From Mugil cephalus (Eukaryota; Chordata; Actinopteri; Mugiliformes; Mugilidae), in assembly GCF_022458985.1 (NCBI RefSeq), contig NC_061770.1:4584501-4648500 (forward strand): a stretch of 64,000 nt of DNA. Reading direction: 5' to 3'. Below the pieces are notes generated by a model, which saw nothing but the letters and a program-made list of their open reading frames with translations, did no database searches and had not been told where the DNA came from. Below are positions 6,092 through 64,000 of the stretch, piece after piece (the first letter of the stretch is position 1; each line of letters opens with the position of its first letter). A program made the translations under genes and the position numbers.

Positions 6092-6235
6092 CTACTTCTT
6101 CTTGTGGAGGGGGTTTAACCAGGAGAAGCAGAAACTGGGCCGACGTGAAGCCTCGCTGAGGGTGAATGAGGACGAGGAAGGGGCGGAGGAGAAGGGGCGA
6201 CTGGGGTCAGCAGGGCTCCTTGTCTCAGTCTCCAT
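6092..6235 (-). CDS. MuRF-like alternative last exon B: TRIM55-type FSWLN C-terminus
   Basis: The acceptor is TCTCTGCTACAG, phase 0, so it can join directly to the exon ending at 9183. Its 47 codons begin [15 protein letters not shown] and finish [17 protein letters not shown] before TAG. From memory, human TRIM55 ends with a closely similar FSFSWLNSL motif, which argues that this is the ancestral terminal exon. It cannot follow exon A, because exon A ends in a stop, so the two are mutually exclusive. Confidence 0.62.
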   Translation of the reverse strand: METETRSPADPSRPFSSAPSSSSFTLSEASRRPSFCFSWLNPLHKKK

Positions 6236-9200
6236 CTGTAGCAGAGACGAAAGATTTGTGAATGTTGACGCTGACTGAGTGTTGATCAAAAAACTGTTTG
6301 ACTGTAAGTGGATGTGCCTATTAAATACAGAAAATGTACTTTATCTAGTTGTCTGAAAACAAACAAAAAAATGGAAGACAACAGCTGATTTCCCTCCTTA
6401 CCTGAGTGATTATTTTCTTATTTATGTTTACAAAGTTAGAGTGTTCCATTGTTGCTAAATTGTCTCTCAGTCTGACTGTATAACACAGCAAGAGTCAATG
6501 TACCAAGACTAATCCTCAGTGAATAGCTTTCTGTTTTCAGTGAGCACAATGCAGACAAAAAGAGTGAACTGTGTCTACTATAATTTATTTATTGCAGAGG
6601 ATCTTCATGCAACAGTGTAAAAAGCTTTAGACAAAGGTGACACTTAAATGCATATTCATGAATGTTACATGGCCATGCAAACTATAAAGGTGCCATGACA
6701 AGCATCAAAATTATATTAAAAAATATATTTCTATCCTAAAATTAACTTTTATAAAGGTTGTCAGGTCAAGGTTTATATAGGCAATCAGTATATTTAGTTG
6801 GTTAGTTTTATTGTATTTAAAATGTAAAAAGTCTAATGACTTGCTCAGAAAGGAACTGTAATTAAAAGGTTCTGCCACGGGGTGTCAGCAGAGGCAAGAA
6901 TAAACTGAAGGATGAAAATGTTATTTTCAGTTTTTATTTGGATTGATAATGAAACATTTCCCTTCTTTTTGCTTTAACAAGTTTGCTTCCTTGTATCTGT
7001 GAGGATTAAAGTGAATCTGTAAGGAAGGAATGACATTTGTGATAGCGGTCAGTGAAAATTCTGGACACCTACATTTAGATATATACTCTTCCAAGCTTTC
7101 CAAGCTTGAAAATGCATTTGTTCTCTAAAATAGAAGCATTCCACAGCGCTTTCAGGTGGAGCCAGCAGGTGCATATACCTGAGCTGGGCAGCAGTGATGA
7201 TGGGTGTGTCTCTGGCTGGGGTTATGTGCAAATGAAGCAGCCGAAGTAAACCCAAACCCTCTGCAGGATGACCAGGAAGGCCAACAGGTAGAAGAGCAGA
7301 GTGACAGCCTGGAGAGAGATGGAGGGATGGACAGAGAAAGAGAGAGAGGGAGAGGTGGGTGAGGGAAATGGCAGGAGGAAGGTAGGAGGGAGACGGAAGA
7401 GGGAAAGGAGGGTGCAACGAGAAAAAGAATGAAAATGTTTGAGATGAAGGAGCAAGATGAAGAAATTATGCTGCACAGAAAAAAGGCCAACATGGAAGAC
7501 TTTGGGGAATTCTGGAAGGAAAGAGGAAGTTAAACTCATCTGGTTTGACGGTTACTTAAAGTTACACTTGGGTAGAAGTTTATACTTCTACTTCACTCCC
7601 TTTTAGACGCATTCATCTAAAGTTTATACGTTTCAGCTCCTCAGAAGATTATACAGTCCTGATAAGGTAATCAGTGAAGATAAATCTCTGTAGTTCCATT
7701 TAAATGTGGTGTCTGTGGAGACACTTCTCGCTGTAGAACTGGTTTACATCAACTAGCAATGACTGCAAAAACTGAAGAGGGGAGAAACAGGGATTGAGAC
7801 AGACTTGTACCTAGCAGCATGGTGAACAAAGAGGAGTTGTGAACATAACCAAGGTTATCCTTTTTCCTTTGGGAAGTATAACAAAGAATCTAGAAATGGT
7901 TTAAGAAGAGTTTCTGATGCTATAAATAAGAAACTTAGCATTGTGTGGCTCTTTCTCATTGCAAACTGACGAGGGATACAAAAGTTTCACAATGTAGCGT
8001 TAACCGTGATATAATATATTTTTAGTCCCTACTGGGCGGGGGAAACAGGCTATCATTTACATGTAGCAGCTGCCAATTTACACATCTAAGGTTAGGTAGC
8101 TAGATGTCTCCTTTGAGGTGTGACGTTGTGGTGGTATCAGCCATCTTCTATGGAGAGGTCTTCTCGACCAGCAGTACCTCAGTAGCAGACAAAAAGAGAC
8201 CGAATAAACTGGTGTAGAAGGCCGCCTCTGTTCTCGGCTGCCCTCTAGAGCCTGTGGAGGTGGTGGGTGATCAGTGGTTCATCATGCCTGATGGAAAACT
8301 GGTCCCATCCTCTCCAATGGTGCTATAACAGCACTGGGCAGCTCCTTTAGCTGACGACTGCTTCAATATCCCTGCTCAGTGTACACCACATACACATTTA
8401 TTTATTTTTTACGTTTATCTTTTTATCTTTTGAGTGCACAGCCCTTTAAACTGTACACTGCTGTAACCCACTGTACGCTAAATAATTTGTTATTATTATC
8501 TTATCGTATCTTATAGCCATGTTATCATTTGTGTCCATCTTGATGATGTAAGCATATAAATCGCTCTCTTTTAGCTCTGTTTTTGGTCTCCTCCTCCTTA
8601 GATAGTGTCTGGATTTTTAGCTGATAAAAATTCACAGCTAGTTAGTTACCTTCCACATGGAAATAGTTTTTTTAATGCTAGAACCTATTAAGAAATCTGC
8701 ACACACTGAAGTTTCTACATGAGAATGAACCAAAATTGTAGTAAATTGAAGAGTTAAATGATTCTTAGCCAATAAGCTAGCTTTTTTCAAATGATCACAC
8801 TATTGATTAGTGTTGCTTTATCTTCGTCCAGCCCTGTGTATGAAAGCCAACTAAAGTGGTGCTGGATGTAATTATATCAAGGTCAGATAAATCATATTTG
8901 CTAGCTTTAGATAATGGATAATAGTTTTCTCTGCTTCCTCCTTTCTATTTCCTCCACATTTTCCCAAAGTGAAAAAATAAATAAATAAATAAAAATGATG
9001 AAGCCGCCAAGCTGCAGAAGTGACTCGGTGAATCATGAGCAGCAATAACCAAGAAGAGAAGAGAAGAAGAAGATAGCGCGGAAGTGTAGCCACGTCAACA
9101 GCTGGGTGTAGAGTGCAAGAGACTGGTGATGGTGGTGAAGATGATGATGATGATGATGGCGGCAAAACCACATGACACTGACCTGGAGAGAGACAGGGGA

Positions 9201-12200
9201 GATTGTTTTCTCTTCAGTTTCATTGGGATTAAAGACATCAGGCTTTGTGCTGCTCTCTTCACCCTCATGTTTGTTTTCTGTGGACTCTGACATACCAGCC
9301 TTGAACACCGGATCTCTCAGCATCACGTCATTCCCACTCTTCACACCATCATCTCCATCCAAGCTGCAATGTGTCACTTCAGTGATTTCCTCCCTCACGT
9401 CCAGAGCATCCTGGTGTAATCCGCACAGATCTTTTTCCAGCTCTACACTTCCCTTTTCCATTGTCTCAGCTCCACATTCGGTCATTCTAAGCCATCTTTC
9501 TTTGACCTCTGATGTCCCTTTAAGAGCTGTAATATCTTTGTCTTGCTCTTCCTTGTCTGCTTCACTGAGTCCATGGTTATCCGTTTCTGGAAAACCTCTG
9601 TGAAGCTGATGAAGCTCTGGTGCAATGGACGAAGTGCATTTATTACTTTCAGAAAAACTGTCTTCTCCAACATCAAAACATTCCTCCACCAGGCTGAACC
9701 CTTTACCTGCAGCTCTGGGCAGACACACCCAGCCCTGCATCTCCTCCTCCTCTTCCACCTCCTCATTCTCTTCCTCAGTTATACCAGCACCTCCTGCTGT
9801 CTGCTGAGTTATTTGCACACGTGGTGCTACAGATGTGAAAGCGTTGCCTGGCACCTTCTGAGGCTGAGGTGATGATTCAACAAAAAGAGGCTGGGATAGG
9901 CTTTCTGAGAGCTGAGGTGGATGAGAGAGTGGTAAGTAAGGCTTAGCATTAAGCCGAGTACAAAGAGGGAGTTGATGCGGCTGCAAGTGGAGGAAGAGCT
10001 CAGGTCCCTGAGGAGGTTCAGACGGATCCCGACCAGACAGAAACTGAGAGAGTTGAATCTGTTGAGGCTGTAGCTGAATTTGTGGTTCAGATGTGGGCAG
10101 GACCGTATCCTGAGCCTCACCCTCTGGTTTCGTCTCAATTAGAGAATCCGCGGTCGGCTGTGGTGAGCACTTTATCTGCTCTGCATCATAAACGTTCATC
10201 GGGGTTTCTTCCAGAACAGGCAGGACAGAGCTGAACCTGCTCCAGTTACCAGGTTTGTACCAGCTGGGGTAAAAGACACCATCGATTCCCTCCTTCAGCT
10301 GCACTCCTTCCACGTCTTGTCTTTCGGCCTCTTCTCCTTCACACTAATATGTGAAGGAAGAGAGTTAAAAGGCCACACAGAAGCCCATTAACTACTAGAA
10401 AGCATACAGTCTGTCTTGCACAGTTAATTTGATTTACTTTTAATTTATAATTTGAGTTCAATCCAATCAAATAGCAAAAACTCGCCATGAGACAGGGAGA
10501 ACATTGTTATGTCGTGGACTGGTATCTTTTCAGAGTGACGCTTAAAAGTATGTCAGAGAAAATTTGAATATTTGCTGTGTTGTTGTAATATCTTGCAAAC
10601 ATACTTCTTATGTGTCTTACTGGTGCAGCCTATAATTGTGTTTTCTTAGGCTGGTTAACTGACTCAGCAGCAGACTGGATGTTCTGAAAACTGATGATGC
10701 GTTCAAGAACACAGAAATATCTGAACCTTCATTTAGCTTCATTGATGTTGTGTTTGTATCCGTTGTTATTTGCGGGTTCTCCTCTTTTGATTGTCTACAC
10801 AGTTGATTAATGTTGATTAACTTTCATTCTCAGATCAGACTTGTTGAAGCTGAGACCAAAGTGCTCAGAAGGCTGCAAATCAATAAATGTTACAAGGATA
10901 TAAAACAAACATTGTTGCACATTGTAGTTAATGGGCTCAGCAGTTCTCTAAAGAAACAGAGGAACGTTGGAGAGACTGATGATGAGGCTTAGCACTGAAA
11001 GAAAATCTGTTTTCGTCAAGTTCACCTTCACACATTTAACAACTTCCACCTAATTATCACTTACAAGTGAACAATGCTTTTCAAAATATCTTGGGTTCTC
11101 TAAATATTGAGTTCACTCTAATTTAGTTCTCATTCACATTAAAAGGTGTAGATGTGGTACTGTACCTGTTGTGTGCTCATGCCCTCCTGCTGTTCACATA
11201 CATTCCCCTCTTTAACTGGAGCCGGCGCTTCAAATTCCTCTGCTTCCTTCTTCTCCTCTTTAATCTGACCGGATCTCACATCATTTGAGTCTAAGTTTTC
11301 AGTCTCCTGCTGTGTAAATTCCTCTGCAGGTTCCTCAGCGTCCCTCATCAGGGCTGGAGCTGATGGAATCACCGCTGGTGCTGGTAATGGTTCCAGTGGT
11401 GGGGATATCAGCACGGGAATCAACACTTTCCCTGGTCTAACAGCTTCCATGTCCTGGACTGAGGTTTCCTGACACTGTTTTGCTTGCATGTTCTCGACCA
11501 AAGGTTCTTTGGGTTCCTCTATGGGTTCCTCTATGGGTTCCTCTGTGGGTTCCTCTGTGGGTTCCTCTGTGCGTTGCTTTGGAGGATCCACCTCTAGTTC
11601 TTCAGGAACATCCTCCACAACTGATAAAACAAGACAATACTGAATATGTGTTTGCAATGTGCTTTACATGACATTTAAACTTTTGAATGTTCTTCCCTCT
11701 CTGACACAAACATTGTGTTTTTCCAAGCGATGGGTTTTTCTTGAAAAAGAAACCTTTCAATTGTATTGTATTGTATGCACTGGATGCTTCATCTGCTGCA
11801 GCGATCTCCTAATTAATAACTGGACTCCAACCCATAAAAAACACCCCATGACAGTTCATGTTATTTAGTTTGTAATCCATCCAAACAAAATAACACGATG
11901 CTTTTCACAGAGAGGTATTTGATGCTGCTGCAGGTGTAAATAGCCTTTACAGAGTTGTTTTTGTAAATTTAAAATTAAATTTAATTCTCTCCCAGTGCAA
12001 GAAAATAGATTTTGTCTTCAGACCTTTGAGGAAGTCTATGCACTTCAGAGCTTTCTCCTGTCTGCCGAAGTTGAAGCTGTAGTGACTCAGACTCTCATAA
12101 CCTGGTTTTAGAGTCTCAGATGGACCAGAGGTGGACGCTGTGATCACTCTGAGAAAAGAGAGGACAGATAGATAGGAGAATGGGGGGAAAGATGATGTAA

Positions 12201-15200
12201 AGAAATGGGAACAGAACAGGAGGCAGAAGCCGCATGATCCAATTGAAACAGATTACTGAGAAAAAAGATGTTACATTTAATCAAAGAATGTTAACATTTG
12301 TTTACTTACTTTGCGACCAGATCTCTTGAATTCTGAAAGGATAGTTAAACAAGTTTGATTTATCTTAAGGTGCAAAAACATAGAACCATCAAACAAACCA
12401 TAAAAATAAAAAATAAAAGGATTCAAAGCATTCTTTGGACTGGACACTGAACACACTTGAACAAAAGCAGCCATGTCTGGCTCCTCCATGCTGCCCGTTG
12501 CACTCTCCATCAGCTTCCTGTTGGCTTCCACACTGTCTCCATAGCAAAGCACCAGCGACTGGGCGTGGCCTGTCTTCTCTTCCTCCTCAGAGTTGATTTG
12601 CTGCATCATCGTCTTTAAGAATAAGAATAAGAACAACTGTACGGTAAAAGTAACATACAAAAACAAAGGTCTGGAAAGGGTATGTGTTTGCATTAAATTA
12701 AAATTTAAGATTAAAGCACTCGTGTATCTTTTAATTAGTTTTAATTAGTTTGGTCAGCAAACACATACAGGAGTCTATCATTCTGTCTTTGACTGGACAC
12801 GTAAAATCTCTGTTTTGTGCTTGTTTAATTTTGTTAACGCATTACGCATTCCATCATTGGGCATTCAAAGAAACAAATGTACAACATGTGCAGTTGTTGT
12901 CTGCCGAGAGGGAATATGTATAAAGAAGATAAATGGGACCGAGAATATTTCCTTGAGGAACACCATATTCAGTCAAATGTCAGAGACACAAAAATCACCT
13001 AATATACACCAAAGAAATATAATGAAGCCATGTTGATGAAGCCAACTCATATTTTAGAGATAGTGTTACTGATATAAACATAATATGTGTTACATATAAC
13101 ATTCATTTCATCTATTACTATTCCGTTGTTCATATCCACTACTCGTGCAGCCTCTACTGTCAGTAGTGCTGCGTTAGTACAACCGTGGCTTCCATCTGTG
13201 TTTATTTTACTTGCATCAAAGCTGCTCAGTGAACAGTGACTGAGAGTGAAATCAAAGAGGTATAAACTCTGACCGTGCGTCTCTCCTCCAGGATGGAAAA
13301 CATGCGGCTGAACTTGTCACACACGCTCTGTTTCTGTGTCTTACAGTTCTCCTGTGGAGGGAGGAGAGAAGATTGGAGCACAAAACTCGATTCACTCATG
13401 TTGAATGTTTGAACACAATGTGAGAAATAAAGATGGTAGGTATGACACTGGAAATACGCTAACAAGTCAAACATATTCAGTGACAGTGTCACATAAGAAC
13501 AGAAGAATGAGTTCAGATTTACTGATTTTTAGTTACTTTGGTATTAATTTCTGATCTTATAATCAAGAGATTATAAGGTGTAATTAATTCATGTAAAATT
13601 TGCAAATGATTAACAAATCAACAATAAGTCATATAATAAGTAACTAGTTTTTAACTTGTACTAGTATTTAACTGCAAACCTGCAAGATATTATTAACTTT
13701 TAAATGGATTTTTGACATTTCTGTAAATAGTTTATCAACCAGAGCTTTTTAATGTTACCTCAGTAGAAGGAAGGACTTGGCTCTAAATATAATCAGTAAC
13801 TGTATATTTGTTCTAATGAAAAGAACAACACTGGAAAATGTAACTGAAGATGTTTTTGGACATATCAAATAAAAACCTGGACACATTATTGTGATCTTAA
13901 ACATAGTTATAGGATGACCGTAAAACACACAAACCTCCACGTTTCTGCAGCTCTCCTCCAGCTCATCAATCAGAGCCTGGACTTTGTCGTTGAACGCCAC
14001 CAGAGACGTGATTGCTTCGCTCAGCTCATCCTGAGAAAAGAAAGAAAATTTATTGATGAAGTTGAAGTTATTTCAGCGTTGGCGTTGAGGGCAGAAAACC
14101 AAAAACATCAGTTAAAAAATGACTCATTGGGCTTCTGCTTATCTCATTACGAATGAATATTATTTTTTTTGTTTTTCTGTATAACGCACCTTCTGCTGCT
14201 GATACACGTCTGTCAGAGGAGCCACCTGACAGGACTGATGAGCCCCGAACACTTTGCACAGCGAGCATGTGGGAGCCTGACAGGTGAGACAGTAGATGTT
14301 CACCTTTTCACCCTCATGGTCTGAGCATGTTACCTGAGCAGCTGGTGGAGGAAGCGGGGCTGGGCTGGAGAGGAACATATAAGTGAATATAAAAATATGT
14401 TACATATGACGTGCACCTCCTTGTTGTCTCTGTTTACCTCATGGCGCTCTGGTTGCTGACCTCCTGCTTGTAGACGTCGATGATGTTCTCCACCAGCAGG
14501 TTTCTCTGAAGGCCATAGACGCCGTGGCGATCCAGCACCACTTCATGCCTGCAGGTGGGACAGCGGAACCGGCCGCTGTTCACCATCATGGTGGTCCGGG
14601 CCTGGAACAGCGATGGCTGGACACAGGAAGTAACAATTAAAAAGGTTGAAAATGTGAACTTAACGCGTAATGACAGCCTCAGATTGTGGTTTAGTTGCTA
14701 CAGAGGCCTGTCGGGATTCATATTTAATGTTGGAAAGTCTCAGGGATCTGTTTAAAAAATATGAATAGATGTAAAACAACCAAAAAGAGACTAATGTAAC
14801 CACAAAAACACACAAAATGTCCTCAGTGACATTAAAAACAATTCCAAAGACATGAAGGGGGACCCTGGAGAAACACAATATTCATCGAGAAACATGAGAT
14901 GATGCACACTGACACATTTAAAGTCATATCTTTTGGTTCTTTTGGGTCTTTTAACCACTAGTAAAGTGGATACCCGAGCCTCTAACAACTGTCTCATCAT
15001 TCATCCATGCCTGCCAACACCTAACACTTGCCGCATTCGGGGATTTCAATAATTAGCAGCAGCATTATTAATCAGTCAGAGTGACTGCTGAAGAATGTGT
15101 TAAGTCTCCCAAACGTCTCCCAGGATGAAGTCAGACCTGCTTAAGGACAAGTTACTGGGCAAGAACAACATTGCAAGCAGGGAAAAATCCCCTGCTTGCT

Positions 15201-16304: not shown

Positions 16305-19300
16305 GTACAATAGTGATCAAGGCGATGGAACGTGTGTGAAGCTGAGGAAGTTTATGCCTTTCTTTAAAATGCCACCATCTGAATGAGGTCACATAACTAC
16401 AAACTAGCAGTAAGTATACATTAGGTAAGTACATTAGGCTACACATGAATGTAGAGATGAACAATTAACAGAAACCGAAAGCAAGATTTATGTCGTTGGG
16501 GTGTTACAGGGAAAATACACAGACACACAGACAGACGAATGAAGAAAAGGACTGATGAGCTGATGGAAGGTTATAGGAGTACAGCTTCCTGAAATAGTGA
16601 AATAAGCCTCAGCTGCCACTGGGCCTGACTGAGGGATCAGTGCCTCTGGCTGTTGGAGAGACAACAACTGAGGCAGGAGGACTGATATAGAGACAAAAAG
16701 ATGGCTTGAACCAGAGGAGGATAAATATCTTTACCCAATGATACACAAGAAATGGCCTCACATGCAGTTTAACCTGAGGATTAACAGCTGTTTGTCTTGT
16801 CTATGCTAAGCTAAACTATCCCGCTAGCCCCAGATTTATATCTACTGTACAGAAACAGAAGAGTGGGGTCACAGTGTTCATGGGCACTGTTACTCCACTA
16901 ATAATCTAGATAAAATGTCACATGTATCCACCTCAGTCAGAATGATATTCTGTTCCAATAGGAAAACCTGATCTCCTGATCAACATGTAACCATTACATT
17001 GTTTCTTTCTGCTTAGAATTAATACATTTTATTTTATTACAAGTCCATGTGGGGTAAAAAAAATAGGTGAGATAACAAGTTTCCACAAGGGACCGAGACA
17101 AGGATGAAGCTCCATGACTCCAGTTGATCAAACAAGTATATATAGAAAACCAAAATAACCAAAATAAACCAAAGGTGACTGGAATTGTTTCAGTTTCAGT
17201 TTGGCACCATCCAAAGTAATAATAACTTTAAATAATTTAAATTAAATTCTTGGTTTATCGATGCAGAGAGGACAGAGAAGAGAAAAGATAGTAGCAATCT
17301 GAAACTAAACGGCTTGATATTGAAAGCTGAGGATGGCTGTGGGCAGAGCTGCAGTTGTATTTGAACAAAGTGCACAAAGGAAAGGAAACAGCATGCAGCC
17401 AGGAGGAGGTTAAGAGGATGGATGGATGAATCTTTCCATTCCAACTTTAAGTGTGAGTGTAGTTTTCAGGCAGACCTCTTGGGGTCAAAGGTCGTGAACA
17501 TGATCGTGACAGTGGGCGCGACATATAGAAGGTTTCCATTCCACATATCATGTTCACGTGTAAATACACACACTCATACTGTATGTAAAGTGTGTGCTGT
17601 TGTGTGAGAGCAGCTTCAGATTTGTATGCTGTAAGGCTGTGAGTCTGGGCTCACAGTGTGGATCCAGAGGGAAACAACAGCCATGAAACTACAACACGTC
17701 AAAGTGCAGGTAACAGGAAATGAACCAATGTATGTTCTAAGAAACAGACTCCAAGTTGTTTTGGTTGTGTTGTATCATGTGCACATGTTATTACTTCATT
17801 AGTGGTGTTTTTGTACACTTTTGATATTTGATATGGTATTTCTTCACAGCCTGCACAGGTGATCAGATTTACTTACATGTCATGTCATGTCATATCATGT
17901 TTACTCTACACCTGCCACTACACTGTTATATGATTTACCTAGGCACATCAACAACTGATTCATGGTAATGAAGCTCATGCAATGAAAGCATTTCACAAAT
18001 GTACTGTGGGGAACACCAGCAGTAAATAAGAAGATGACGTTGATTTATGACCACTGGTGTACGAATGTGTTCATCTGATGGAACATGAACTGATTCCTCA
18101 GGTTAACCTTCCTAATATTGTGTAGGTCTTCCTTGTGCTTCCCAAACAGTTGTGACTCATCAGAGAATGGACATGGACCTTCTGAGGGTGTTCTGAGGGG
18201 TCTGGAAACACAATGTATGAGCCTTTGGGTTGAGGGGAGGGGTCTCTGTGGATCATCCCACAGATACTTGACCAGTTTGGGATCTAGAGAATTTGGAGGC
18301 CAGGTCAACACCTTGTGCTGTTCTTCATGTGTTCAACCATTTTTGTGTGTGTCAGGCTGCATCCTGCTGGGGATGTCTGCTGCCATCAAGGAGTGTCATT
18401 GCTATGGGGTGGGGGTGTCTGGTCTGGTCTAGGTGGGTGCTACATGTCTAAGTATCGTCCACATGAATACCGGGTCCAAAGTTTCCCAATATAAACCCGA
18501 CTGTATTTCATCCATATTTCTTTTAATAAATCTTAATTGGTCATTAAAATATTAAACAAAGAATTACTTTGTAAAATGAGTTAAAGTTTTATTAATATAT
18601 CCATGACGCTTGTGGTCCTCAATTAATAACTGCCTCTAATGAGTCCTTTTATTTAGCATTAATATATCAGTTAATAAATATGATCAAATCATTAGCTGAG
18701 TATTTTGACTTCTTTATAACTTTTTGGGCTGTTTGTTGTATAACGGTCCTCACATGTTATCAGATGTTTGAAACGTTTGCACGTAATAGCTATCAGATAA
18801 ATGTAGGTGAGCAAACACTATATTTACAGAACCTGTTTGCAGAAACTCGCCATATGCCCCAGTAACTACTTGCTTCAGTGCAGCTGTCAAGATAAATGGA
18901 GAAACTATGAAGTAAATTAAAATAGAGAGATAGACTTCAAATACTGAAGTATTTCAGCCACTTCTGATTTAGATTTTCAGTTTGGGGACTTCAGGTGCGC
19001 TTAGTCACCCTCAGTGGCACTGGGAGCACATTTAAGTCACCAAATGTGGGTCAAGATCGGGTGACTTTCATGCAGCCTTCATGAGCAAACCAGCTAAACA
19101 TCCACACATCCCAGTTTAGCCCCAGATAATCCACTGAACGCACACACACAAATCTGCATGCTTTGTTTTAAGCACACGTGAATGTGCACTATGTTCACTG
19201 CTGTCATGTGGTATTAAACGTACAGGGTGAAAGCGGGGGCTTGTGCACATACCACATACAGAACTGTGTGTGCAGGTGTGAATGTGTATACACACACTGA

Positions 19301-20752
19301 CCTGGTAGAGCTCGTTAGCACACTTCCTGCAGAGGTTGTGCTGGCACGGCAGGATGACCACCGGTTTGTTGAAGATCTCCAGGCAGATCGGACAGATCAG
19401 CTGTTTCTCCAGCGTTGCCAGCGCCGCCTCATGCTCTGCTCCACTGCTGCCCTGCAGGCAGCTCAGGTCGGCTGACAGGGACATGACCACTCCACCGAAC
19501 TTCACCTCCTCCTGTTGAAGCCAGAGACGCGGGATGTGGTCTAGAGTTACCAAGCACACGTTTTAATACTTCACCATATCACCAGTGGATTCCAGCTGTT
19601 ATAAATGAGCTTATGATAAAATTCACAGATGCTTTTAAACCTCTGTTAGGCATGTTTAACATGTGCCCGTATGTGCAGAGCTGAACGTAAATCTGTGATA
19701 AAAAGCCAAAACACAACCATCAAACGGAGCACCAGATGAAGAGACGAACAAGCTACAGACACCTGTAGCTCCATGTAGGTTTGGACAGACAGGTTTTTTT
19801 GTTATTTTTAGCTGTGTACTAAAAACTATTCAGGTCGCAGCCATAAATGTGGTCTCAAAGTACAGGCTCTAGGAAATACAACCATTTTTATAGATAGTTC
19901 CCTTTTATCACGAGCTCAAAAGTGGATGATATACTTTCCTTATTTTTAACAGTTAAACAGCTAAAAGGAGTTAAAACATCCACATTTGGTTAACATTATG
20001 ACTGCCCGCCTAATGTTGTGTAGATCTCTCTTGTGCCTCTTAGTCAGTTGTGACTCATCAGAAAATGGACTTGGGTCTTCTGAGGGTGTCCTGTGGTGTC
20101 TGGTAACAGGATATTGTTAGTGGGGGCGTTTGGGCCTCTGTGGATCATCCCACAGATACTTGATCAGTTTGGGATCTAGTGAACTTAGAGGTCAGGTCAA
20201 CACCTTGTGCTGTTCTTCATGTTTTTGAGTTGTTCCTAAAATGTTTTTGTGTCTATGTTTGTGTCAGGCTGCATCCTGCTTGGTCATTGCTATGTGGCGG
20301 GGATGCCTGGTCAACCTGGGTGATACATGTCTAAGTAACATCCACATGAATTCCAGGGCCAGAAGTTTCCCAGCAGAACACTTGAATTGTCAGAGGATGG
20401 TCAATGTTATTTACCTCACCTGTCATGCTGGTCTATTGGTCATAATGTTATGGCTGACTGGAATAGGTTTTAAAAACCTTTCCGTGCAAATGAAACAGAA
20501 TGTCCTATAAAGAAAATCCATTTGGGAAAAAATGTCAGACTAAATGTTATGACATTTATTTGTCAAACCACTTTTGAACCCAGTAATGTTAGTAATGAAA
20601 TGAAACATGTCCAAGTATATTAACTTAAATCCATTTTAAAAAATACACTTGCAATAATAATAATAAAAAACAATATGGTAATCTTCAGACTTATGAAAAA
20701 TAATAAATTCATTTAAGATTAGGGCAGTTTCTTGACTTACCTTTCTCTGCAT
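6092..20752 (-). CDS. MuRF-family RING/B-box/coiled-coil E3 ubiquitin ligase, TRIM55-like, with alternative last exons
   Basis: Exons in order, all phase-matched: 20752-20741, 19511-19302, 14616-14438, 14364-14190, 14030-13935, 13351-13274, 12612-12457, 12332-12310, 12148-12024, 11620-11166, 10343-9183, then either 7308-7222 (918 aa) or 6235-6092 (937 aa). Domains: RING at residues ~44-104 ([17 protein letters not shown]), MuRF linker [21 protein letters not shown]-box2 at ~147-188, coiled coil ~193-302, COS-like box ~303-352, acidic tail to 890. Family role: MuRFs ubiquitinate muscle proteins and bind titin and microtubules. The closest match is TRIM55 (FYPSWYK motif at ~527-533 and SWLN end). 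Symbol left blank: fish may list this locus as trim101 or a trim54/55-like gene. The tail (~540 aa) is longer than in human TRIM55. Confidence 0.88.
6933..6938 (-). terminator. Candidate polyadenylation signal AATAAA for the hydrophobic-tail transcript
   Basis: AATAAA on the minus strand lies downstream of the exon A stop and upstream of exon B, as a separate 3' end for the short form would need. A second AATAAATAAA cluster lies at 6593-6584. Confidence 0.4.
7222..7308 (-). CDS. MuRF-like alternative last exon A: hydrophobic C-terminal tail (putative membrane anchor)
   Basis: The acceptor is CTCTCTCCAG behind a long pyrimidine tract, phase 0 with the exon ending ISPVSLQ. Its 28 codons read [15 protein letters not shown], then Gln-Arg, then [11 protein letters not shown] and TAA. 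Nearly all residues are hydrophobic or aromatic, consistent with a tail anchor. An AATAAA on the minus strand at 6938-6933, about 285 bases past the stop, could end this transcript. Known MuRFs have no membrane segment; TRIM13 and TRIM59 have C-terminal ones. The central Gln-Arg pair lowers certainty of a full span. Confidence 0.65.
   Translation of the reverse strand, partial: AVTLLFYLLAFLVILQRVWVYFGCFICT
8975..8995. repeat. AAAT microsatellite
   Basis: Short run of AAAT units in the last long intron of the MuRF-like gene. Confidence 0.7.
9183..11620 (-). CDS. MuRF-like exons 10-11: long acidic, proline-rich tail
   Basis: Exons 11620-11166 (455 nt) and 10343-9183 (1161 nt). The first opens [20 protein letters not shown] and carries five Thr/Ile-Glu-Glu-Pro units coded by a 12-base tandem repeat. 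The second has [16 protein letters not shown], a motif shared with TRIM55, then Gln/Pro-rich and Glu-rich stretches ([13 protein letters not shown]), and ends ISPVSLQ at a GTCAGT donor. Most of the tail appears disordered. Continuing past the donor would add a false His run from a GAT/ATG microsatellite. Confidence 0.82.
11512..11576. repeat. 12-base coding tandem repeat (five Glu-Glu-Pro-Thr/Ile units)
   Basis: On the plus strand the unit is GGTTCCTCTRTG, repeated five times with A/G variation. Read on the minus strand it codes Glu-Glu-Pro plus Thr or Ile, within the acidic tail of the MuRF-like protein. A 12-base unit keeps the frame when copies are gained or lost. Confidence 0.85.
12024..12332 (-). 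CDS. MuRF-like exons 8-9: 23-nt microexon and COS-like box
   Basis: A 23-nt exon (12332-12310, NSRDLVAK) is the classical TRIM microexon. The 125-nt exon (12148-12024) encodes [38 protein letters not shown], matching the TRIM55 stretch with GYENMNHFTVNL and IDF. In class II TRIMs this COS region binds microtubules. The donor after Leu-Lys is weak (GTCTGA), but the phase is right for the next exon. Confidence 0.8.
12457..14030 (-). CDS. MuRF-like exons 5-7: coiled coil, with an extra intron
   Basis: Exons 14030-13935 (96 nt), 13351-13274 (78 nt) and 12612-12457 (156 nt). They encode [45 protein letters not shown] and [19 protein letters not shown], ending in [11 protein letters not shown], which aligns with the MuRF coiled coil. 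The 78 and 156 nt exons add up to 234 nt, the size of the single exon usual at this place in TRIM genes. An intron of 661 bases has apparently been added after Glu-Arg-Arg-Thr. Confidence 0.82.
14190..14364 (-). CDS. MuRF-like exon 4: B-box type 2 zinc finger
   Basis: It holds [35 protein letters not shown] and [13 protein letters not shown], with all expected Cys/His ligands of a B-box2. A Pro/Ala stretch ([10 protein letters not shown]) precedes it where other MuRFs have a charged linker. In TRIM proteins this domain supports coiled-coil assembly and ligase activity. Confidence 0.9.
14438..14616 (-). CDS. MuRF-like exon 3: second half of RING and MuRF-specific linker
   Basis: The exon begins [20 protein letters not shown] and continues [19 protein letters not shown] and [13 protein letters not shown]. 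The second zinc-binding CPTC pair of the RING and the MuRF family linker are intact. Acceptor TGTGTCCAG; donor GTAAAC leaves a split codon completed by the next exon. Confidence 0.9.
15264..16270. mobile_element. Inverted-repeat (foldback/MITE-like) element in the MuRF-like RING intron
   Basis: The left arm (15264-15351) contains GGTAACCTTTATTTCCCC, GAAGTATAAATAACACAGAA and GCCTCTGCTGA. The right arm (16183-16270) is its inverse complement with few changes. The arms are ~88 bases long and enclose ~830 bases with no coding sequence. Both are flanked outside by CA/TG runs, which may be part of the element or a preferred target. No transposase was seen, so it would be non-autonomous. Confidence 0.65.
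16271..16299. repeat. (TG)n microsatellite
   Basis: About 14 uninterrupted TG units next to the right arm of the inverted-repeat element. Confidence 0.85.
18103..18495 (+). repeat. Dispersed repeat copy A (Tc1/mariner-like derived)
   Basis: Shares long blocks with 19992-20470, such as CTAATRTTGTGTAG, GACTCATCAGARAATGGAC, CACAGATACTTGA and TTTGGGATCTAG, and ends near TCCACATGAAT. It lacks a clean right end. The family is a widespread fish repeat whose intact ends read CACCAATCAGGCATAAC. Confidence 0.6.
19302..19511 (-). CDS. MuRF-like exon 2: N-terminus and first half of the RING finger
   Basis: 210 bases, 70 codons, acceptor CTTCAACAG and donor GTCAGT. It carries [34 protein letters not shown], near identical to the MuRF RING. 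A methionine inside it (MSLSADLS) could also start translation. However, the frame stays open to the acceptor and joins a short upstream exon (20752-20741, Met-Gln-Arg-Lys, donor GTAAGT), giving a start at 20752. Which start is used is not settled by sequence alone. Confidence 0.85.
19992..20470 (+). repeat. Dispersed repeat copy B (Tc1/mariner-like derived)
   Basis: Same family as copy A. It starts AACATTATGACTGCC and ends GGTCATAATGTTATGGCTG, so both inverted ends are visible. It lies in the first intron of the MuRF-like gene. An open frame through it is not a gene. Confidence 0.65.
20741..20752 (-). CDS. MuRF-like exon 1: four-codon coding start exon
   Basis: The minus strand reads ACGG-ATG-CAG-AGA-AAG followed by a consensus GTAAGT donor. 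It is in frame with the RING exon. Bases upstream (to about 20.8 kb) would be 5' UTR and promoter. If it is only 5' UTR, translation would start at the internal methionine of exon 2. Confidence 0.5.
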
Positions 20753-25996: not shown

Positions 25997-27928
25997 TTAG
26001 TATGTGTCGGTCTTGTAGCTTTGGTGGGCATCAGAGGTGAGCTGGGTGGTTTCTGTGGCTGAAGACGGCTGCATCACGATGGGCTCACCGCCATCTGGGG
26101 ACAACACACACGCACCCACATATGAAATCAACAAGACAATGAAACTATAAAAGACAAAAAAGTCATGATCGTGGACATGAACCTTAATTGTTTGTGTGAT
26201 TCTGTGATAATATCACAGAAAGACAGTCTGTTTTTTTTTTTTTAACCTCTCCTCCTCACCTCTCTCGTCAGCGGTCATCTGGGCCTCGAGGTCCTCGGGG
26301 GAGACGTAGAACTCGGGCTCTTGGTCCATGGGCGGCCGAGGTTTACATTTTCCGCAGCAGCAGTTACAGCAGCAACATAGGCAACAGCAGAAATAACAGC
26401 CCGTGGCCAGGCAGCAGAACACGAACAGGCCCTGTGGGACGAAGACGAAGAGGAGAGAGATTTACAACTGACTGACAAAGCTGAGCAGCTGCAAATAAAC
26501 AAAACAAAACAAAAAAAAAAAAACAAGGAAGATTTTTTTTTTGTATATACATGATAAAGTGAACATTAAGTGAACAAATCAAAGACAGTGGATGTATTTT
26601 TTTTTGACACAGATCATATTTTCCTGTGCCATTTATTCCTATTTACTTTTTCAACAATTCAGTCTGATTGTAGATTGAATTGTGATTCATTGATATATGT
26701 AGGTGATGTTAATCACAGCTGTTTGAATTTTGAAAACTTTTGAATTTTCCCTTTGGTGGCTCAGTATAGATAGACATCATTTGACACAGAAATAATCACT
26801 GGAGCTACTAAAATAAAATAAACTGTTAAATATAGTCGTATCTTTCAGTTGAAATACACAAATATAATATATAAACAATGCACTACAAAGTTAGCACTGA
26901 CATCTAAAGAACACGACACCATTATTCATGCCCACATCATGTGAAACAACCATCCCTGATTACATTTCATTTGTAAAACTGCAAACACAGTTTCATTTTA
27001 AAACCTTTGTCCCAAACCTCTTCCTTGAATCAAAGACAAAGGCAGAAGCTGCTTTGTAGGACATGCATTAGCCTCACAAAGTGCTTCACTGTGTCCCAAC
27101 GTACCTTCGCCCACCAGCTGGACAGAACAAAGTAGGTGTTGACATTTTCCTCTCCGAACTGTTCCGCCACATAGAGGCCCAGCGAGCCATATTTGTCGTA
27201 GATGTTCTTTTTAGTGGCGTCGACCAGGATGGAGTGGGCGTTGTTGATTTCCTTGAACTTTTCGGCTGCATCTGGATTGTCTGGGTTTTTATCTGGGTGA
27301 AACTTCAGTGCCAATTTCCTGTAAAGAGAAACAGAGAATGGAGGACTCAGCTCAGTGGGGGCTACTGCTCTTTTTGTCACTCTTCCGAAGCAGAACAACA
27401 ATGACTTATAATTAATTTCTTAATAATTAACATGCATCTCACAAAGTACGGAGGCTGTAGGTAGTGACTGTGTGCAGACTTTGAGCTAAGACAATTTTGT
27501 CAAACTATTTCATGACCCAGGACAGATTTTCATTCTCGATGATTTCAGTATTGAACCACTGCACAGACAAGGCTGAATACTGAACATTTAGAAACATGGA
27601 GCTGTGGCTGTTACTGTTAAAAACAGTGAGGAAGTAAAAAATAAAATCAGTAAACGTGGTGATCAGGAAGACATCACTAAACAATCACTGCCACTCACCT
27701 GTTTATTTCAGGATACATTTTAACACTTAAAGGAACATGTTGCAGGACTCTGACGCCCTCTAGTGGGTCACAAATTAAAACATTCCTATGCTCTCCTGTT
27801 TGTGTGTGAATCAACACATACCTGTAACACTTCTTGATGTCCTCTGTTGTGGCATTCTTGTCGACTCCCAGGACAGCATACAGTGATTCCCCTGATGTGG
27901 AGAGAGCCCTCTGTCTCTGATGGTCCAT
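25997..27928 (-). CDS. dnajc5: Cysteine string protein alpha (DNAJ/HSP40 co-chaperone)
   Basis: Four coding exons join in phase: 27928-27822, 27318-27105, 26431-26260 and 26094-25997, giving 196 aa (human 198). The J domain begins [20 protein letters not shown]; the HPD triad falls at residues 43-45 ([19 protein letters not shown]). The linker is followed by the cysteine string at 113-136 with 14 Cys, then a conserved [12 protein letters not shown] segment and a [11 protein letters not shown] tail. Family role: palmitoylated synaptic-vesicle co-chaperone of Hsc70 that maintains SNAP-25 and other presynaptic clients. The acceptor at 27996 suggests the coding start exon carries ~67 bases of 5' UTR. 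It lies between a MuRF gene and adrm1. Full cysteine string and DNAJC5 neighbours argue against the DNAJC5B and DNAJC5G paralogues. Confidence 0.95.
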
Positions 27929-34983: not shown

Positions 34984-35170
34984 TACACCAATCAGGCATA
35001 ACAAATATGGCCAGTGACAGGAGACGTAAATAACACGGACCATCTTGTGACAATGCAGTGTTCTGCTGGAAAACTTTTGGACCTGTCATTCATGTAGATG
35101 TTACTTAGACATGCACCACCCACCTAGACCAGACCAGACCACACACCTCATAGCAATGACACTCCTTGAT
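34984..35170 (-). repeat. Dispersed repeat copy C, inverted, right half only
   Basis: Begins CACCAATCAGGCATAACA and then runs as the inverse complement of the right half of copies A and B (CATGTAGATGTTACTTAGACA, GCAATGACACTCCTTGAT). It ends abruptly, so it is 5'-truncated relative to copy B. Confidence 0.6.
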
Positions 35171-46500: not shown

Positions 46501-47355
46501 CTTCTTGCATCCTCGCTCCTCTCGTCGTACAGTGGACCTAGCAAGCGTCTGCACCCCGGAGATGATGGCTCCGATCCTGAGTAACGCCGAGGTCCAACAG
46601 AGGCTGCTGCCCTTCCTCCCCAGTGGAGAGAGTTTACCACAGAGCGCTGAGGAGATCCAGAGCACACTCAACTCTCCTCAGTTCCAGCAGGTAGGAGGAA
46701 TGAAGAAAGTTAGGACATCACTTCAGCTTCCTGTATACGTCATTGACTGTGACCTCTCCTCTCTTTAGTCTATGAGCATGTTCAGCAGTGCCTTGGCCTC
46801 CGGGCAGCTCGGCCCACTCATGAGTCAGTTTGGTCTGCCGGCTGAAGCTGTGGATGCTGCAAACAAAGGAGGTCAGACAAACGCATGACACTAAGAACCC
46901 TTCATTTCATTTTCCATGTTACCTTTGTTTGTGTTAAGGGTCTTAAATACAGGACAAAAACAAACATTAATACAATGATTCAGTTTAAAGATATTTCAAG
47001 AAGAGCTATTGCTACTGTCCATAAAGTAGCAATATACACATGTTCTGGTTGTTTCACTTGGAAACATTTTGTTTGGGAAATGTACAAGAGTGTTACCTTA
47101 TTCATGGCACATGAGAAAGTGGGTTCATGGGGAAGAAACTCAATGTTCCTACAACATTTCCTGGGCTCTTTGTCTGATGAATGAGGAATTACGACAAGGA
47201 TAGATTTACATTTACATTCACTTCCACGTCCTTTCTGTTTATCAGTGTGTGTTTTTTGCTCCTTGTCAGATGTGGAGGCGTTTGCCCGAGCCATGCAGAG
47301 CAGTAAGGACTCTAAAGAGAAGAAGGAGGACGATGAGGACATGAGTCTGGATTAA
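43503..47355 (+). CDS. adrm1: Proteasomal ubiquitin receptor ADRM1 (RPN13)
   Basis: Nine coding exons join in phase: 43503-43712, 44337-44453, 45433-45643, 45781-45859, 45972-46108, 46296-46427, 46533-46690, 46769-46871 and 47270-47355, giving 410 aa (human 407). The Pru ubiquitin-binding domain fills roughly residues 20-130 ([60 protein letters not shown]). A Gly-rich then Ser/Ala/Pro-rich linker follows. The C-terminal DEUBAD region ([17 protein letters not shown] to [19 protein letters not shown]) binds UCHL5/UCH37, and the protein ends EDDEDMSLD. Role: RPN13 docks on RPN2 of the 19S particle and captures ubiquitin chains. It lies head-to-head with dnajc5 and tail-to-tail with lama5; in human it also adjoins LAMA5. 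The start follows an 18-base 5' UTR piece in the same exon. No defect seen. Confidence 0.96.
44731..44836 (+). repeat. Dispersed fragment with LDNDPYEL frame, in an adrm1 intron
   Basis: Reads [19 protein letters not shown] then [10 protein letters not shown] before a stop. It shares this end with 31625-31715. It is a piece of an unidentified element, not an adrm1 exon: no splice sites fit and the frame is not conserved in ADRM1. Confidence 0.45.
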
Positions 47356-63868: not shown

Positions 63869-64000
63869 ACACCAATGAGGCATAACATTATGACCATCTT
63901 CCTAATATTGTGACTCATCAGAGGATGGACATGGGTCTTCTGGGGGTGTCCTGTGGTGTCTGGTAACAGTATGATGTTAGTAGGGCCGTTTGGGCCTATG
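63869..64000 (+). repeat. Dispersed repeat copy D, cut by the window edge
   Basis: Begins CACCAATGAGGCATAACATTATGACC, shared with the other copies, then CTAATATTGTGACTCATCAG and GGTGTCCTGTGGTGTCTGGT as in copy B. It lies in a lama5 intron and continues beyond base 64000. Confidence 0.65.

Follow-up and report, generated by a model that had tools for sequence, protein, structure and literature searches.

Two candidate last exons, one encoding a hydrophobic tail, in a teleost MuRF ubiquitin ligase gene

Results

We analyzed a stretch of 64,000 nucleotides of the teleost Mugil cephalus (assembly GCF_022458985.1, contig NC_061770.1, positions 4,584,501 to 4,648,500; hereafter, the window). Its minus strand carries an intact gene for a MuRF ubiquitin ligase (20752-6092). 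This gene, likely trim101, probably has an alternative-last-exon design like that of MURF2 (TRIM55), so that the protein would end either in a hydrophobic, B-type tail or in an A-type end with the motif FxFSWLN. The exon model was built from sequence alone. Eleven common coding exons could be placed, with phases that agree and no stops inside, and they encode a shared part of 890 residues whose terminus, ISPVSLQ, falls at CTCCAG in phase 0. The donor at 9183 can be joined in phase 0 to 7308, giving alternative last exon A (7222-7308; 28 mostly hydrophobic residues and a stop), or to 6235, giving alternative last exon B (6092-6235; 47 residues and a stop, resembling an A-type MuRF end). Open frames reach the stop in both versions, with 919 codons for exon A and 938 for exon B, stops counted. 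The original prediction on this DNA had described these two splices and a polyadenylation signal between the last exons at 6938-6933. We confirm its coordinates, phases, and stops, with 9183 as the last exon base and 9182 as the first intron base, and the signal turns out to be one of four.

Codon choice provides the main evidence that exon A is coding. Its synonymous codons lean by 15.0 bits toward the usage of the other coding exons in the window, a value attained by none of 5000 synonymous draws with intron base composition, none of 1745 stop-free 28-codon stretches from the other introns of the gene, and none of 667 stretches of the last intron outside exon A. The third codon position is G or C in 22 of the 28 codons (P = 0.0018, 0.003, and 0.018 under three local base compositions). 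It is this codon choice, which favors coding, that lifts exon A above chance. Among the 1779 stretches of the window rich in T at the second codon position (both strands), 16 reach the codon score of exon A, and 14 of these are exon A itself or start up to 39 bases upstream in its frame, in the pyrimidine tract. Since the shifted stretches reach this score too, the codon signal does not tell where the exon begins. Two more acceptors lie upstream, at 7511 and 7470 (minus strand), and the latter opens a frame of 82 residues that runs into the exon A tail. The splice sites, scored with a simple consensus matrix, are ordinary for this gene: the acceptors of exons A and B score 7.9 and 6.6, the gene's ten other acceptors span 3.3 to 11.0, and the donor at 9183 scores 4.5.

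The region between the two last exons contains AATAAA starting at 6938 (6933-6938), 6812, 6593, and 6589, i.e., four copies versus 0.74 expected from 500 Markov resamples (P about 0.01). It also has a donor, ACTCAG/gtaaggag, at 6401 (minus strand; score 7.35), the only site scoring at least 3 that is listed between exon A and 6300. Combined with the acceptor at 6236 this donor would delimit an intron of 166 bases, making a third 3'-end structure possible. A weak donor near 7178 (CAG/GTATAT), found by eye, scores below 3. The density of YGCY near exon A is unremarkable. TGCATG occurs twice between the last exons (6679 and 6611), and a hand estimate with equal base frequencies gives about 0.75 for 3.1 kb, so this signal is too weak to use.

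The tail encoded by exon A begins with 15 strongly hydrophobic residues, followed by Q-R and then by 11 mostly hydrophobic or aromatic residues that include two cysteines. We scored it with general hydropathy scales and used sarcolipin as a yardstick of hydropathy only, claiming no homology. Residues 1 to 15 have a Kyte-Doolittle value of 2.86 and a flat biological-scale sum of -3.7; in windows of 19 residues the best values are 2.14 and +0.77, respectively, owing to Q16-R17. Because these two residues lie inside the tail, a single classical tail anchor is less certain. The tail may serve as a short anchor, form a longer helix whose arginine snorkels, or act as a peptide that lies on the membrane surface or binds LC3. 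Together with its eight flanking residues, it matched no solved structure at E values up to 10 and no Pfam family.

Exon B has a counterpart elsewhere in the genome. A genome search with the core of the ligase gave 118 matches at E values of at most 1e-4. Judging by identity and exon pattern, we counted four MuRF genes among them, on the contigs C12, C18, C7, and C1, the last one being the gene of the window; the gene on C12 is one long match, with a single exon. The remaining matches were taken to be other TRIM genes. Many weaker ones (roughly 20-30% identity, with long open frames) lie on C4 at 15.1-17.9 and 28.9-30.3 Mb, and also on C7, C8, and C11; they appear to be arrays of TRIM-like genes of the sort known from the multigene TRIM families of fish. 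Where exon B has FCFSWLN, the last exon of the C7 gene has FSFSWLN. The two exons match by BLASTP with an E value of 3e-4 in a single comparison, and the six identities in seven positions of the motif were reached by none of 3000 residue shuffles. The C7 exon is likewise in phase 0, at an acceptor chosen by hand, and the C7 terminus is SEQGEAEDGPKHVFSFSWLNQK. Because of this match, exon B is most likely an ordinary A-type MuRF end. A tract of about 800 bases of nearly pure C/T precedes the last exon of the C7 gene (C7:1124521-1125330). The frame of the C18 gene stops shortly past its acidic exon (C18:6245000-6244600), terminating in ISSSPSAAKSASST and a stop, and we found no FxFSWLN end nearby. 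In collections of non-animal contigs, which are uninformative on conservation, the 351-residue core gave no pattern matches among viral contigs and 46 among genome contigs, none of which was confirmed.

The shared part has the domains of a MuRF ligase, in the MuRF order of RING, B-box, and TRIM coiled coil. Pfam matches above the cut-off were zf-RING_UBOX (1.1e-10), zf-C3HC4 (1.8e-07), and zf-B_box (1.2e-06), and TRIM_CC (6.7e-06) fell below its own cut-off, with 26.5 of 30 bits. Coding exon 1 (20741-20752) has an open frame encoding MQRK, a presumed start codon, and the donor AAG/gtaagt. The RING is split between coding exons 2 (19302-19511) and 3 (14438-14616) according to Pfam, and the latter also encodes the MuRF linker. 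Coding exon 4 (14190-14364) encodes the B-box, whose nearest relatives, in a comparison limited to solved structures, are TRIM63 (2d8u, 8.9e-20) and TRIM54 (3q1d, 7.9e-18). Coding exons 5 to 7 (14030-13935, 13351-13274, and 12612-12457) encode the coiled coil, recognized by Pfam and by similarity to solved structures (TRIM63 4m3l, 1.9e-06). Coding exons 8 and 9 (12332-12310 and 12148-12024) encode a putatively COS-like region; no Pfam COS model matched after the coiled coil. Coding exon 10 (11166-11620) is acidic and proline-rich, ending in ACACAACAG in phase 0, and coding exon 11 (9183-10343), long and acidic, provides the donor common to both ends. Skipping exon 11 and joining exon 10 to exon B stays in frame and would give a protein of 550 residues, similar in design to the p50A form of MURF2. 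Reading past the donor of exon 11 (9182-9033, minus strand) reveals a His-rich, partly hydrophobic stretch followed by a stop, a possible end by intron retention. The first intron contains an interspersed repeat (20000-20560), with pieces 81-90% identical at 18111-18488, 35015-35160, and 63908-63997; they include one exact match of 21 bases.

The neighborhood points to the identity of the gene. A DnaJ gene that we take to be of the DNAJC5 type lies at 27147-27296 and 26249-26341 (Pfam DnaJ matches the first piece alone), ADRM1 is matched at 46532-46690 (Pfam RPN13_C and PDB), and a laminin gene lies near the right end of the window, with a PDB match and with Pfam Laminin_I below the cut-off only. 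On human chromosome 20, ADRM1 and a laminin gene adjoin DNAJC5. In ray-finned fish, the crh2 block is reported to include dnajc5 and trim101 (PMC9353778). Given these neighbors and this block, the gene is most likely trim101, the teleost MuRF called MuRF4 in one report (PMC5795982) and a MuRF1 paralogue in another (PMC8805411), and reported missing from birds and placental mammals (PMC7013991). The pairing of MuRF and DNAJC5 is not unique, since the C7 MuRF gene also adjoins a DNAJC5-like exon (C7:1130785). A further DNAJC5-like exon lies on the contig of the window itself (C1:8633091-8633240), 4 Mb from the window's own and 88% identical to it, possibly a teleost duplicate.

Discussion

The closest known system is mammalian MURF2, which has two C termini, an A type (residues 505-545) and a B type (505-537), the latter described as “very hydrophobic” and LC3-binding (PMC3790703). 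The fish gene belongs to the same ligase family and likewise has two alternative C termini past a common part. Its hydrophobic end, of about 30 residues like that of MURF2B, is encoded downstream of the long exon and upstream of the A-type one; its FxFSWLN end follows CAG in phase 0, and a junction after CAG is likely in MURF2A too. The A-type end of MURF2 is FSFSWLN. The resemblance extends to the skipping of the long exon, which stays in frame as in the p50A form. The MURF2 forms p50A and p60A have junctions of exons 8-11 and 9-11, respectively (PMC3353113), which places exon 10 between the junction exons, at the position that exon A has here. Exon 10 of MURF2 would then encode the B end. 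Two printed MURF2 target sequences have CAGATTGGAT in common (PMC3353113), and from this common part the junction likely falls after CAG. Splicing in this part of the family is also regulated, since MBNL1 promotes the inclusion of Trim55 exon 9 (PMC4783916). The differences are that ours is another MuRF gene, judging by its neighbors, with a shared part of 890 residues instead of about 504, and that LC3 binding and expression timing have been described for MURF2. In C2C12 cells, MURF2B predominates in myoblasts and MURF2A in myotubes, and in myoblasts both are also found on reticular structures (PMC3790703).

We infer that both transcripts may be made, that exon A would be equivalent to the exon behind the MURF2B end, and that its hydrophobic tail would lead the ligase to membranes. 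A plausible mechanism is as follows. In a transcript that ends at one of the four AATAAA signals (6938 to 6589), the long exon would join exon A, adding the hydrophobic end of 28 residues. When these signals are passed, or exon A is skipped, exon B would be joined, adding the FxFSWLN end. The choice of polyadenylation site or splicing could thereby select exon A early and exon B late. The hydrophobic form could go to membranes, either a reticulum like the endoplasmic or sarcoplasmic reticulum or LC3-positive autophagic membranes, and the FxFSWLN form could stay with the sarcomere and microtubules. By analogy, the nearest experimental precedent (MURF2) points to LC3-positive vesicles and reticular structures. 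More tentatively, and with rather less confidence than we have in the two-ended gene itself, the hydrophobic exon may predate the 2R (two-round) duplications that gave the four MuRF genes and be shared with the MURF2B end. The LC3-interacting region (LIR) of MURF2B could then be, or also be, a tail anchor, and the choice of last exon an ancestral switch between the sarcomere and autophagic or reticular membranes.

The original prediction had proposed a switch between the sarcomere or cytoskeleton and a membrane such as the sarcoplasmic reticulum or outer mitochondrial membrane, and had stated that C-terminal membrane anchors are not known in MuRFs. What stands is that the gene encodes a MuRF ligase, that a choice between a hydrophobic end and a TRIM55-like one is plausible, and that the AATAAA signals are suitably placed for it. 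What does not stand is the novelty of a hydrophobic MuRF end: MURF2 has two such ends, one of them hydrophobic, and a C-terminal transmembrane domain, which is a domain prediction, has been reported for teleost TRIM101 (PMC10048487). The latter protein resembles ours in being a MuRF ligase with a hydrophobic C terminus and a dnajc5 neighbor in the same block. In the literature passages on TRIM101 we found no mention of an alternative last exon of the FxFSWLN type or of another soluble end. New here would be that a fourth MuRF gene has both ends. If the tails share ancestry, the ancestral nature of the switch and the reinterpretation of the MURF2B motif as a membrane anchor would be new as well.

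Other explanations deserve consideration. The hydrophobic end could be chiefly an LC3-interacting motif, as proposed for MURF2B, with the ligase remaining peripheral and being recruited to autophagosomes. We regard this as rather unlikely. In its favor, the MURF2B end fused to GST co-precipitated with GFP-LC3 and co-localized with LC3 vesicles (PMC3790703). The fish tail contains FYLL and FLVI, both of them [FWY]xx[LIV] cores, and its W19 lies near the position of the human motif (residues 522-526, in a tail that starts near 505), an approximate match. However, any strongly hydrophobic stretch is expected to contain such cores, neither of the two is preceded by an acidic residue, and a helix buried in the membrane presumably could not bind LC3. 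Another explanation, which seems improbable, concerns the 3' end: exon A could belong to an internal exon that has a premature stop and ends at the strong donor at 6401 or at the weaker one near 7178, with exon B serving as 3' untranslated region. Nonsense-mediated decay would then set the level of the mRNA and not the location of the protein. Yet all four AATAAA signals precede the donor at 6401, which is consistent with normal 3' ends, and the MURF2B protein is made in mammalian cells (PMC3790703). It is also unlikely, if a little less so than the premature stop just described, that exon A is seldom if ever spliced, being a pyrimidine-rich stretch, decaying or arisen by chance, whose frame is open and hydrophobic. 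In favor of this idea, the codon signal continues in frame into the pyrimidine tract. Against it stand the coding-like codon choice, unequalled by the intronic stretches tested, an acceptor comparable to those of the gene's other exons, and the transmembrane domain reported for TRIM101. Several observations nevertheless weigh against a hydrophobic tail in a trim101 gene. The whole window has 146 acceptor-like sites scoring at least 5 (both strands), of which 66 are followed by a phase-0 frame at least 19 codons long with a stop within 80. The 19-residue Kyte-Doolittle mean reaches at least 1.6 in 7 of these 66 pairs of acceptor and frame, and the 2.14 of exon A is matched or exceeded in 3 of them, exon A counted, such that hydrophobicity alone is weak evidence for coding. 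The two remaining stretches that reach the codon score (9723 and 9726, plus strand) are antisense to the long exon, and DNA that does not code can therefore occasionally attain it. When the genome was searched with the 28-residue tail, E values up to 10 being allowed, only the tail itself was returned, in a first look that passed one candidate and that weak relatives may escape. No counterpart of exon A was found in the multi-exon MuRF genes of C18 and C7 when 20 kb around each (the C7 stretch including 2618 N at its far end) was scanned for hydrophobic phase-0 tails of 19-60 residues behind an acceptor, using alignment scores without a shuffled control. Four candidates on C18 and two on C7 were dismissed by eye as dissimilar or badly placed. 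As for the identity of the gene, it is based on neighbors and literature. Furthermore, a grass carp survey from 2021 lists a TRIM101 of 465 residues, assigns it to the cytoplasm and nucleus, and finds it expressed mostly in the head kidney, muscle not being one of the six tissues sampled (PMC8698530). A 2011 survey of zebrafish and pufferfish numbered TRIM101, and the tail is not detailed in what we consulted of it (PMC3137616).

Switches of this kind have precedents in other proteins. The choice of C-terminal exon determines membrane versus cytosolic location in DMPK (PMC2778554), and endoplasmic reticulum versus mitochondria in SLMAP, whose tails have 27 and 30 residues (PMC2712456). These are also muscle proteins with an alternative C-terminal exon, but they are unrelated to MuRFs, and their targeting was measured, whereas that of the fish ligase is predicted. 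Within the TRIM family, human TRIM13 and TRIM59 are named as having a transmembrane domain (PMC10048487). They are TRIM ligases with a transmembrane domain, as the putative trim101 product may be; unlike it, they are not MuRFs. We know of no alternative soluble end in TRIM13 or TRIM59 comparable to that of the fish gene.

Should both isoforms be made, the MURF2A/MURF2B design would belong to the MuRF family and not to a single gene of mammals. It could then be tested a second time, and independently, in fish that have trim101, whether the hydrophobic end anchors the ligase in a membrane or binds LC3, a question that bears on the way muscle selects between the proteasome and autophagy.

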